Of a stretch of DNA of 64,000 nucleotides, positions 54,948 to 58,313 are shown piece by piece. This stretch comes from Candidatus Methanoperedens nitratireducens. Lineage in GTDB: Archaea > Halobacteriota > Methanosarcinia > Methanosarcinales > Methanoperedenaceae. The position numbers and the translations under genes were made by a program. Where the stretch lies: NCBI RefSeq assembly GCF_900196725.1, contig NZ_FZMP01000196.1:1-64000 (forward strand), written 5' to 3'. Within the stretch, counting starts at the first letter, position 1. Each line of letters opens with the position of its first letter. The notes under the pieces are model-generated. The model had not been told where the DNA came from and did no database searches. It was given only the letters and a program-made list of their open reading frames with translations.

Positions 54948-55484
54948 TTATTGTCTAAATTCGCCCGTAAACCTGAACTCCCACAAACTCCCGCCTTTGA
55001 TCTCCTTCTGCCTCAGGTGCTCTATCTCATGGGCAATATCATAAGCAGTAGAGCCATCGAAAACGAGTTCTTTTTCAGCCAGTTCCTCTATCTTTATCTC
55101 CTTTTCAAGAGGATTTACAGTAGTTTTTATTATGCGGTCACTCATTACTCGAACTTTGTATGGTCGCCTGACAAGCAATCTCATCTCCTCATTCCCGCAT
55201 TTCTCAAGCCTGTGGACAGTTCCCTCTTCATCTCTAATTTCAGGATTAACGAACAAATATATTTCCTCAAGAGAATATCCGAGTTTTCTTTCATCATCGT
55301 AAATCGTGGTCTTGTCCATCACTGCCATTGTCTTTATGTCCTCGGAAGAATAGCTCCAGTCCCCGCCGTCCCTCAGGGAGAGCAGAAGCGGAGTAAAAGC
55401 ATCTGCCGGCAAGTTAAAACTTGAAATCAGCTTTCTCTCGGCATTCGTGAAATCTATGATTTCCCTGACCTTATCTATGTCCAT
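54948..55484 (-). CDS. Peptide deformylase-like metalloprotein
   Basis: A 178-aa protein. The order FVNPEI (~78-83), Cys96 in EKCGN, RRPYKVRV (~106-113) and HEIEH (His152-Glu153, His156) mirrors the deformylase pattern NPEI, EGCLS, RP.. and HE.DH, giving a possible Cys/His/His metal site and catalytic Glu. The first deformylase motif GxGxAAxQ is not obvious, so the substrate may differ. Archaea do not formylate initiator Met. The gene overlaps the Nudix hydrolase gene by 14 nt. Confidence 0.6.
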   Translation of the reverse strand: MDIDKVREIIDFTNAERKLISSFNLPADAFTPLLLSLRDGGDWSYSSEDIKTMAVMDKTTIYDDERKLGYSLEEIYLFVNPEIRDEEGTVHRLEKCGNEEMRLLVRRPYKVRVMSDRIIKTTVNPLEKEIKIEELAEKELVFDGSTAYDIAHEIEHLRQKEIKGGSLWEFRFTGEFRQ

Positions 55485-55908
55485 TTTCTATGATCCTTTG
55501 TTCCTTAAGGAATGTATGTGCCTTCCTCAGTATATTCTTCGCATTCTCAAAAGTGAGTCGCTCTATAGCCTTTTGATAGTCCAGCCACTCGTAGCCGGTA
55601 TGTTCGAAAGATAGCACCACTTCACTAGTTTCGGTCTCCATCAGGAAAAATACGGCTTCCTTATAGACAGTCCTGCCCCCCATCTTGAAAAAATATCTTA
55701 TCTCTTCCCTGAATCCTTCGATGAACCTTGCATCCGTGATACCTGTTTCTTCCATGAGCTCTCTTACGACCGTGTCCCTTTCGCTCTCGCCTTTCTCGAC
55801 CTCGCCTTTTACATAATCCCAGTGACCTGCTTCGTAATGCAATAAAAGATATTTTACTTCCCGGTTTTTCCTGAATACTACGGCCCCACATGATTTTTTC
55901 CGCATCAT
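55471..55908 (-). CDS. Nudix hydrolase (diadenosine-polyphosphate hydrolase-like)
   Basis: A 145-aa Nudix protein. The Nudix box is GEVEKGESERDTVVRELMEETGI (~35-57), matching GX5EX7REUXEEXGU. The N-terminal KSCGAVVFRKNREVKYLLLHY is typical of Ap4A hydrolases. It probably cleaves dinucleoside polyphosphates or damaged nucleotides. It lies between a uracil-DNA glycosylase gene and the deformylase-like gene, all on the minus strand, consistent with a repair/clean-up operon. Confidence 0.88.
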   Translation of the reverse strand: MMRKKSCGAVVFRKNREVKYLLLHYEAGHWDYVKGEVEKGESERDTVVRELMEETGITDARFIEGFREEIRYFFKMGGRTVYKEAVFFLMETETSEVVLSFEHTGYEWLDYQKAIERLTFENAKNILRKAHTFLKEQRIIENGHR

Positions 55909-55933: not shown

Positions 55934-56521
55934 TTATACGGATTCTTCAAGTTCTTTCTTTATTTTCTGGAAATCCTCTTTGAGTCTTTGCCTGAATGAA
56001 GGATTATAAAGTACTGCTGCCGGATGATAGGTGGGTATTATCCTTACAGGAATATCAAGAAGCCTCTCCGTATATATCCTTCCCCTGACCTGCGCGAGCC
56101 CATTTACCTCAACACCTACCTTTGAAAGGATATATTTTGTTGAGTGCTTTCCCAGTGTAGCAATGATATTTGGCTTTATGATATGTATCTGCCTGTCAAG
56201 ATAGGATGTGCAGGCTTTGATCTCATCGGCTCTTGGCTCCCTGTTCTCAGGCGGTCTGTGCTTTACGATATTGCATATATACACATCTTCCCTTTTAAGA
56301 CCTGTAACTGAAATGAGCGTGTTGAGAAGCTTTCCCGCGCTCCCGACGAAAGGTCTGCCTTTAATATCTTCCTGGTTACCCGGCGCCTCGCCTATCAGCA
56401 TAAGGGATGCATCAAGATTGCCTTCACCGGGAACAGGATTCCTGGCGTGCTGCCAGAGGCGGCATTTTCTACAGACCTGCACCTGTGCGACTATTTCATC
56501 GATAAGTTCCTGCTTTGGCAT
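55934..56521 (-). CDS. udg: Uracil-DNA glycosylase, family 4 ([4Fe-4S])
   Basis: A 195-aa family 4 glycosylase. The iron-sulfur cysteines are in CRKCRLW near residue 17 and later C-x-n-C pairs (CNIVKHRPPENREP, CTSYLDRQIHI). The catalytic motif is LIGEAPGNQEDIKGRPFVGSAGKLLN and the HPAAVLYNP near the C-terminus corresponds to motif B. It removes uracil from DNA. It precedes the Nudix gene by 25 nt on the same strand. Confidence 0.95.
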   Translation of the reverse strand: MPKQELIDEIVAQVQVCRKCRLWQHARNPVPGEGNLDASLMLIGEAPGNQEDIKGRPFVGSAGKLLNTLISVTGLKREDVYICNIVKHRPPENREPRADEIKACTSYLDRQIHIIKPNIIATLGKHSTKYILSKVGVEVNGLAQVRGRIYTERLLDIPVRIIPTYHPAAVLYNPSFRQRLKEDFQKIKKELEESV

Positions 56522-56549: not shown

Positions 56550-58313
56550 TCACTTGCCCCAGAACGGGTTTCCTCTCCTCTTTAGCTCCATGAAAGCCAT
56601 CAGTGCCTCCTTATCCTCGACCGACATCGCCTCGAATAGCTCCTGCTCGGCGATTTTCGCATGCTTCTCAGGCACTTCTACGTAGAGTATATCCCCTTCC
56701 TTTATCTGCCGCCCCACAACTGGTCCGTCTATAGCAACAGCCACCTCCTTGCCAGTCGCAGCCTCGCTCAGGTTCTCGCTGTGTTCCTGGATGCCCTTTA
56801 TCCTTCCAACTATCATCCCGTCCGTCCTCATCACCTCAAGGTTCGTCTTGATTATACCGCCCAGCACGCGTACACCCACAACAGCAGGCTTGCTCTGCCT
56901 GAACGTGCAGTCCGGCAGTATCTGGAACCTGGCGGGCTTGATGATGGTCTCGTAGCGCTTTTTCTCAATGAGCTGCTTTTGTTCCGCAACCCATTTCTTG
57001 TAATCCTCGATAAGCCTGTAGATGACATCGTTAATGAACACCTTGGTGTTCGAACCGGCAAGTTCCTCCTGGGCATCAGGAAGAATATCCACATCAAATC
57101 CAACGATTACCGATAAAAGCGGGTCTTTAATTGTTTTTATTTCTGCCACATCGCGTTTCGTAATGTCGCCAATATCCGCCCTGCGTATCGGTATATTCTC
57201 TTTTTTCAGTTCGTTCACAAGAGCTTCAAGAGAGCCAAGGGTATCGGCTTTGATCAATATCCCGTTTGACTGCGTTTCAATCCTTACCGCATCCACCTCG
57301 GATTTTATCTGAGCAGCTATTTCATTGATATTATCCAGCGCCACCCGTATCTGCGAGCCCGCAAGTGCACCTTCAAGGTTCGGTGCGGCGATCTTTATAC
57401 CGGACGCGGCAACCACTTTTTTTACAGGCTTGAATTTTTCCTCTGCCCTCATCTCGGATAGCGGGCGCGGTTTCAGGAGAGCCCTTACCTTCGTAACAAT
57501 AGGGTTTCCCAGACTCCCTACCACCACAGTATCCCCGACATTCAGTTCCCCGTCATACAATATCACATCCAGCGTGGTGCCAAGACCGGTCTCCTCCTTA
57601 ACCTCAATGACCGTGCCAATGCCAGGTCCTACCGCCCTGTATTCCAGGTCTTTCTCAAGGAATCTCTGCGCCAGCCCCATCAATACCATGAGGATGTCCG
57701 GTATGCCCTCTCCGGTCTTTGCGCTGAGCGGTATCACGCCTACGTTCCGCTGGAAATCACGCACTCTGTCGTACCTGTCCGAGCTGAACCCCATCTCATA
57801 GAGCTTACCGATGAGCACGTATATTTTTCCATCAAGCGCGGTCCTTACATGCTCTGCCTGTTGCGGGTACGATAGTATGAATGGCTGCCCCGGTTGCGAG
57901 TTCCAGCCTGAGAGCCTGTCGATCTTGTTCGCAGCGACCACGAACGGCGTCTTGAACCTTTTAAGTATCTCAACAGCTTCAATAGTCTGGGGCTGGAACC
58001 CTTCGTTTATATCAACAACAAGCACCGCAAGGTCAGCCAGCGCGCCTCCCCTTGCCCGCAGCGTGGTGAACGCCCTGTGCCCCGGGGTATCTATGAAAAG
58101 CAGCCCGGGTATTTTTGTATCGGATTTAAAAATGGGCCCGCATACGCGTTTTATTACATCTAGCGGCACTTCTGTTGCGCCGATATGCTGCGTTATCAGA
58201 CCCGCTTCACGCGCAGCTATTGTGGTGCCCCTTATCCTGTCAAGGAGCGATGTCTTACCGTGGTCAACATGTCCCATAACGCATACTATGGGCGTGCGCA
58301 GGTTTTGTGCCAT
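56550..58313 (-). CDS. infB: Translation initiation factor aIF5B (IF2-like)
   Basis: A 587-aa GTPase. G1 CVMGHVDHGKTSLLD, G3 DTPGHRAFTTLRARGG, G4 VAANKIDRLSGW and the SAKTGEGIPDIL G5 region are present, followed by domain II, a thin domain III and the C-terminal domain ending FMELKRRGNPFWGK. It drives subunit joining at initiation. No intein is present. The gene is minus-strand and lies upstream of udg by 28 nt. Confidence 0.97.
   Translation of the reverse strand: MAQNLRTPIVCVMGHVDHGKTSLLDRIRGTTIAAREAGLITQHIGATEVPLDVIKRVCGPIFKSDTKIPGLLFIDTPGHRAFTTLRARGGALADLAVLVVDINEGFQPQTIEAVEILKRFKTPFVVAANKIDRLSGWNSQPGQPFILSYPQQAEHVRTALDGKIYVLIGKLYEMGFSSDRYDRVRDFQRNVGVIPLSAKTGEGIPDILMVLMGLAQRFLEKDLEYRAVGPGIGTVIEVKEETGLGTTLDVILYDGELNVGDTVVVGSLGNPIVTKVRALLKPRPLSEMRAEEKFKPVKKVVAASGIKIAAPNLEGALAGSQIRVALDNINEIAAQIKSEVDAVRIETQSNGILIKADTLGSLEALVNELKKENIPIRRADIGDITKRDVAEIKTIKDPLLSVIVGFDVDILPDAQEELAGSNTKVFINDVIYRLIEDYKKWVAEQKQLIEKKRYETIIKPARFQILPDCTFRQSKPAVVGVRVLGGIIKTNLEVMRTDGMIVGRIKGIQEHSENLSEAATGKEVAVAIDGPVVGRQIKEGDILYVEVPEKHAKIAEQELFEAMSVEDKEALMAFMELKRRGNPFWGK

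Follow-up and report, generated by a model that had tools for sequence, protein, structure and literature searches.

A deformylase-like protein of Candidatus Methanoperedens and methanogens, a probable divergent archaeal branch of the peptide deformylase superfamily

The window analysed here is a stretch of 64,000 nucleotides from Candidatus Methanoperedens nitratireducens, and one of its genes encodes a protein whose homology to peptide deformylases (PDFs) was demonstrated by profile comparison. We consider that this protein and its relatives, hereafter the subfamily, probably form a divergent archaeal branch of the PDF superfamily, acting as metal-dependent amide hydrolases on a substrate that is probably not formyl-methionine. 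In the proposed mechanism, Cys96, His152 and His156 would bind one divalent metal (Fe2+, Ni2+, Co2+ or Zn2+), the metal would activate water with Glu153 as the general base, and the enzyme would hydrolyse an amide, its likeliest target being an N-formyl or another small N-acyl group. The physiological substrate would differ from formyl-methionyl nascent chains and the pocket would be remodelled, because motif I and the oxyanion-stabilising Gln of PDFs are replaced by GGxWSY and the Leu following the Cys is Gly. Since the genomes are devoid of protein-formylating machinery, the enzyme probably cuts some other small molecule. A deformylase active site thus appears to be conserved in archaea without formyl-methionine synthesis, and the occurrence of the gene in genetically tractable methanogens means that its substrate can be sought directly.

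Gene organization and selection

The gene is the last in a same-strand run of four open reading frames (ORFs), with gaps of 28, 25 and -14 bases in the direction of transcription:

56550-58313, minus strand: translation initiation factor IF2/aIF5B-like ORF, named from its sequence
55934-56521, minus strand: type-4 (family-4) uracil-DNA glycosylase (UDG), NF040953, 274 bits against a cut-off of 250, 25 bases upstream of the Nudix ORF
55471-55908, minus strand: Nudix hydrolase ORF, PF00293, E 9.5e-15, overlapping the start of the next ORF by 14 bases
54948-55484, minus strand: deformylase-like ORF (P0001), 178 amino acids, ATG at 55484, stop at 54950-54948

The ORF, its overlap with a Nudix hydrolase gene, the nearby UDG and the archaeal source had been named in a preliminary description of this DNA, and all were found to be correct, the ORF lying on the minus strand; the nearest homologues lie in the genus of Candidatus Methanoperedens. 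In comparison with the genes of other Methanoperedens the dN/dS ratio was 0.05-0.10, and the ORF is a real gene under purifying selection.

Relationship to peptide deformylase

As a single sequence, the protein matched the Pfam model Pep_deformylase (PF01327) with an E-value of 3.8e-4 and 20.5 bits, below the cut-off of 22.8, and no NCBIfam model matched it. Each of the 31 members of the subfamily alignment (A1) matched Pep_deformylase at E<=1. Profile-profile comparison of A1 with seven bacterial PDFs (A2) gave an E-value of 2.3e-8 and a score of 56.0, and comparison with a wider set (A4) gave an E-value of 8.2e-9. Among 200 column shuffles the highest score was 20.2, and the alignment in reverse scored 21.5. 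The similarity is spread over the protein, the part before residue 138, without HExxH, scoring 36.9 and the part after about residue 100 scoring 39.1. The elements of the two families that are matched in the alignment are the NP, the Cys together with the Glu two positions ahead of it, the Arg and the HExxH. The match to the archaeal PDFs found in this study (A5) was weaker (probability 29%, E 6e-4). When PDB was searched with hmmsearch, PDFs were the main family recovered, C90 aligning on C96 and HEMDH on HExEH. The kinship to PDF suggested by the preliminary description is thus upheld by scores far above those of the shuffled and reversed controls.

AlphaFold2 was applied to the window protein (pLDDT 93.2) and to a Methanosarcina member of the subfamily (93.8), and both models showed an identical order of elements. 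With Foldseek, the top 22 matches in PDB for the former and the top 12 for the latter were PDFs, at probabilities of 0.97-1.00, while the best matches outside PDFs were actin capping protein at 0.25 and 0.44, respectively. TM-scores to PDFs lay in the range of about 0.3-0.47, E-values were near 1e-3 and the rmsd was roughly 6.5-12 A. Owing to these low TM-scores and modest E-values, the structural support rests on the Foldseek probability and the exclusivity of the matches, and the resemblance is to be taken as partial. The modelled fold is accordingly described as PDF-like but diverged. A deformylase core in the predicted structure had been anticipated; PDFs were the sole confident matches, but all TM-scores stayed below 0.5.

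Motifs and predicted active site

The four segments noted beforehand, FVNPEI, EKCGN, RRPYKV and HEIEH, are all present in the deformylase order, and the anticipated three metal ligands (Cys96, His152 and His156) and catalytic Glu (Glu153) are conserved without exception in 36 diverse homologues. The positions are as follows:

55350-55367, minus strand: GGDWSY, residues 40-45, occupying the site of PDF motif I (GxGxAAxQ) as judged from conservation and a forced global profile alignment
55242-55247, minus strand: N80-P81 of FVNPEI; P81 is invariant and aligns with the conserved NP of PDFs
55197-55211, minus strand: RLEKC, residues 92-96, altered motif II, invariant in 36/36; C96 is the predicted metal ligand
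55164-55166, minus strand: R107 of RRPYKV, invariant, aligning with the conserved Arg of PDFs
55017-55031, minus strand: HEIEH, residues 152-156, core of motif III, with predicted ligands H152 and H156 and predicted catalytic base E153

Canonical PDFs (PF01327, TIGR00079; e.g. E. coli Def) share with the subfamily the order NP, E-x-C, R and HExxH and the set of Cys/His/His ligands plus Glu. The differences are such, however, that the subfamily is not canonical PDF by its sequence. Motif I, GxGxAAxQ in canonical PDF, is replaced by an invariant GG(D/S/A)WSY; G40, G41 and W43 are invariant among the 36 homologues, and S44 and Y45 nearly so. Motif II, EGCLS in canonical PDF, reads RLEKC(G), only E-x-C being common, with E94 aligned to the Glu of EGCLS. 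In motif III, HExxH, which lies in a predicted helix (residues 144-158), and the following Leu are present, whereas the preceding Gln and the trailing Gly of PDF are absent. The segment between R and HExxH is longer in the subfamily, and no formyltransferase partner (Fmt) of the canonical PDF kind exceeded the curated cut-off in 60 relatives. The equivalence of the invariant Tyr45 to Gln50 of PDF was also considered and was left unsupported by the forced global alignment, which places the Gln of motif I in a variable column of the subfamily.

The Zn_protease label

The protein also matched the Pfam model PF05618 (Zn_protease) with 33.5 bits, above the cut-off of 27, as did all 31 members of A1 (best 2e-19), and could on this ground be taken for a retropepsin-like "putative ATP-dependent zinc protease". 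This identity is hardly credible: a profile-profile search against eight genuine, DTGA-bearing members found nothing (probability 0.4%), no retropepsin stood among the Foldseek matches listed, and Methanolobus genomes carry both proteins separately. Genuine PF05618 members of the same order have KVDTGA motifs and score 108-133 bits. Zn_protease proper is retropepsin-like and has an ATP-grasp partner, while the subfamily is without the DTGA aspartate motif and differs in predicted fold. Probably, the PF05618 model mixes two families, members of the present subfamily being contained in it, and the label "Zn_protease" is misleading for the subfamily as a whole. At loci L140, L144 and L148, which belong to other genomes of the phylum, an ATP-grasp-like protein carries a PF05618 domain at its C-terminus as a fusion, and at L114 (533-1926) the domain overlaps an ATP-grasp-like gene.

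Comparison with type 3 deformylases

In Archaea, type 3 PDFs have been reported that have substituted motifs and, for the most part, weak or no activity (PMC5591237); others occur in trypanosomatids and some bacteria (PMC5591237, PMC12690207), so that relatives of PDF in archaea are already known in print. No paper on the present subfamily was found in the literature searched, in which few subscription journals were covered. The subfamily resembles type 3 PDFs in its archaeal occurrence, the substitutions in motifs I and II and the retention of HExxH. The type-3-like archaeal proteins found here (L165-L167 and L168:1408-2052, minus strand), in contrast, keep AAPQ of motif I and have W-(D/E)-SC in motif II. 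The subfamily looks separate from type 3 PDFs. Both kinds were observed in one genome, Methanolinea UBA277, in which a type-3-like PDF and a subfamily member lie about 25 kb apart.

The loss of motif I, the alteration of motif II, the weak or absent activity of most type 3 PDFs and the patchy, sometimes broken state of the gene would all agree with a degenerate relative of PDF that is catalytically inactive and serves in binding or regulation. If catalysis had been lost, however, the invariance of the three ligands and the catalytic Glu in 36/36 homologues would be unexpected, and we regard an inactive protein as improbable.

Gene neighbourhoods

About 60 loci were surveyed, genes in GC-rich loci being called by codon-position score. 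No conserved neighbourhood that would point to a substrate was detected among them, every genus having a context of its own, such as a TPR protein in Methanolobus. Genes for Nudix and UDG adjoin the gene in the window and in four other Methanoperedens loci (L048-L051), with another ORF in between at L050, and in no other genus. Several Methanoperedens loci lack this linkage. UDG is also near the gene fragment of one further locus, and all other loci have neither Nudix nor UDG. The preliminary description had proposed from these neighbours a role in the clean-up of DNA damage or metabolites. The 14-base overlap and the close UDG in the window, repeated in L048-L051, speak for such a unit, but the linkage is limited to some Methanoperedens and the proposal is therefore weak; we hold it to be very unlikely.

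Some other neighbours were observed. In Methanoculleus (L061:5612-8519, L063, L067 and L068) the gene lies downstream of an ABC transporter string on the same strand, composed of a solute-binding protein, a TrmO_N protein, a permease and an ATPase with a TOBE domain. The gene is followed by that of FdhD in Methanosalsum and Methanohalobium, and is preceded by a cysteine-desulfurase-like ORF in Methanosalsum. A tfuA-ycaO pair lies beside the gene in Methanofollis-like genomes and near it in Methanosalsum. The loci concerned in these FdhD, cysteine-desulfurase-like and tfuA-ycaO contexts are L082:2447-5190, L195 and L084:7986-9317. By a rough hand estimate, chance alone would give a few neighbours in common between lineages, and for this reason none was taken as evidence of function.

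Two alternative readings draw on these contexts. In the first, the protein would be a metal-dependent hydrolase or peptidase whose targets are larger peptides or protein modifications instead of N-formyl groups. This would be in keeping with HExxH chemistry, by which peptide bonds are also cleaved, and with the tfuA-ycaO neighbours. The third ligand, however, is a Cys preceding the HExxH helix, which is the PDF arrangement, and the tfuA-ycaO coincidence is close to the chance level over many lineages according to the same hand estimate; such an activity appears quite unlikely. The other is an amidohydrolase specific to methane archaea and built on the deformylase scaffold, which would serve either in the hydrolysis of an N-formyl compound of C1 metabolism (e.g. 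the formyl carrier formylmethanofuran) or in the maturation of a Mo/W formate or formylmethanofuran enzyme. Its hints are the likely co-transcription in Methanoculleus with ABC genes resembling those for molybdate/tungstate uptake, and the FdhD adjacency in Methanosalsum and Methanohalobium, and we would rate it as a long shot.

Distribution and descent

Homologues were found in 20 of 60 close relatives, in 17 of the 31 genomes of the genus (two being fragments) and in 64 of 394 genomes of the phylum, distributed over 13 of 136 genera. A scan of GTDB, with one genome per species and exact peptide patterns, by which distant members would escape, yielded 66 loci. All of the named loci belong to Methanoperedens or to methanogens, the latter including Methanosarcina, Methanolobus, Methanosalsum, Methanohalobium, Methanoculleus, Methanolinea, Methanofollis and Methanogenium. 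The gene was matched neither in the phage or plasmid collection nor in viral contigs.

In the gene tree, Methanosarcina, Methanolobus, Methanoperedens and Methanoculleus (with related bins) formed clades, deeper branching being too poorly resolved to judge transfer and one long-branch row falling inside the Methanosarcina clade. These genus clades are compatible with mostly vertical descent within genera. The gene is absent or broken in some species, and the broken or partial copies indicate that it is dispensable in some lineages. Disrupted or partial copies were seen at L108:8001-8512, L110:8001-8162, G398:C5:81840-82286 and G423:C155:30794-31214, internal stops in Methanogenium cariaci and two further genomes, and a fragment in isolate METP1.

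Formylation background

Archaea are reviewed as being without Fmt and generally without canonical PDF (PMC13234167). In none of the 60 relatives did a protein exceed the curated cut-off of TIGR00460 for methionyl-tRNA formyltransferase, leaving no evident supply of formyl-Met-tRNA. The match in the window genome (62.5 bits) covers profile positions 70-190 only, as might be expected of a different formyltransferase, e.g. PurN. The earlier expectation of a substrate other than formyl-methionine is therefore probable.

Alternatively, the protein could be a true PDF in spite of its altered motifs, removing formyl groups from the N-termini of proteins, supplied as accidental or imported formyl-peptides. 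The metal triad and Glu are retained, and a 2025 study reported that the bacterial PDF motifs are not strictly needed, type 3 PDFs of trypanosomes being active (PMC12690207). Against this stand the lack of curated Fmt, the absence of motif I and its Gln, the score below the Pfam PDF cut-off and the lack of an NCBIfam match, and we think this reading unlikely. The reading that we prefer is still the divergent amide hydrolase with a substrate probably other than formyl-methionine.

The general premise that archaeal Met is not formylated agrees with the Fmt search in the 60 relatives, but is not universal in the phylum. Canonical def-fmt pairs were brought to light in another archaeal genus, in five of its five genomes. 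At L163 (1501-2917, plus strand), and likewise at L160, L161, L162 and L164, a canonical PDF with GVGLAAPQ, EGCLSVP and HE-DHLDG adjoins methionyl-tRNA formyltransferase, which at L163 scores 280 bits against the TIGR00460 cut-off of 201.5. These pairs suggest formyl-Met initiation in an archaeon. Each of the five genomes also has a second PDF gene (L180-L184) with HEKDHHEG as motif III and EGSPCIP as motif II, so that the position of the Cys is altered.
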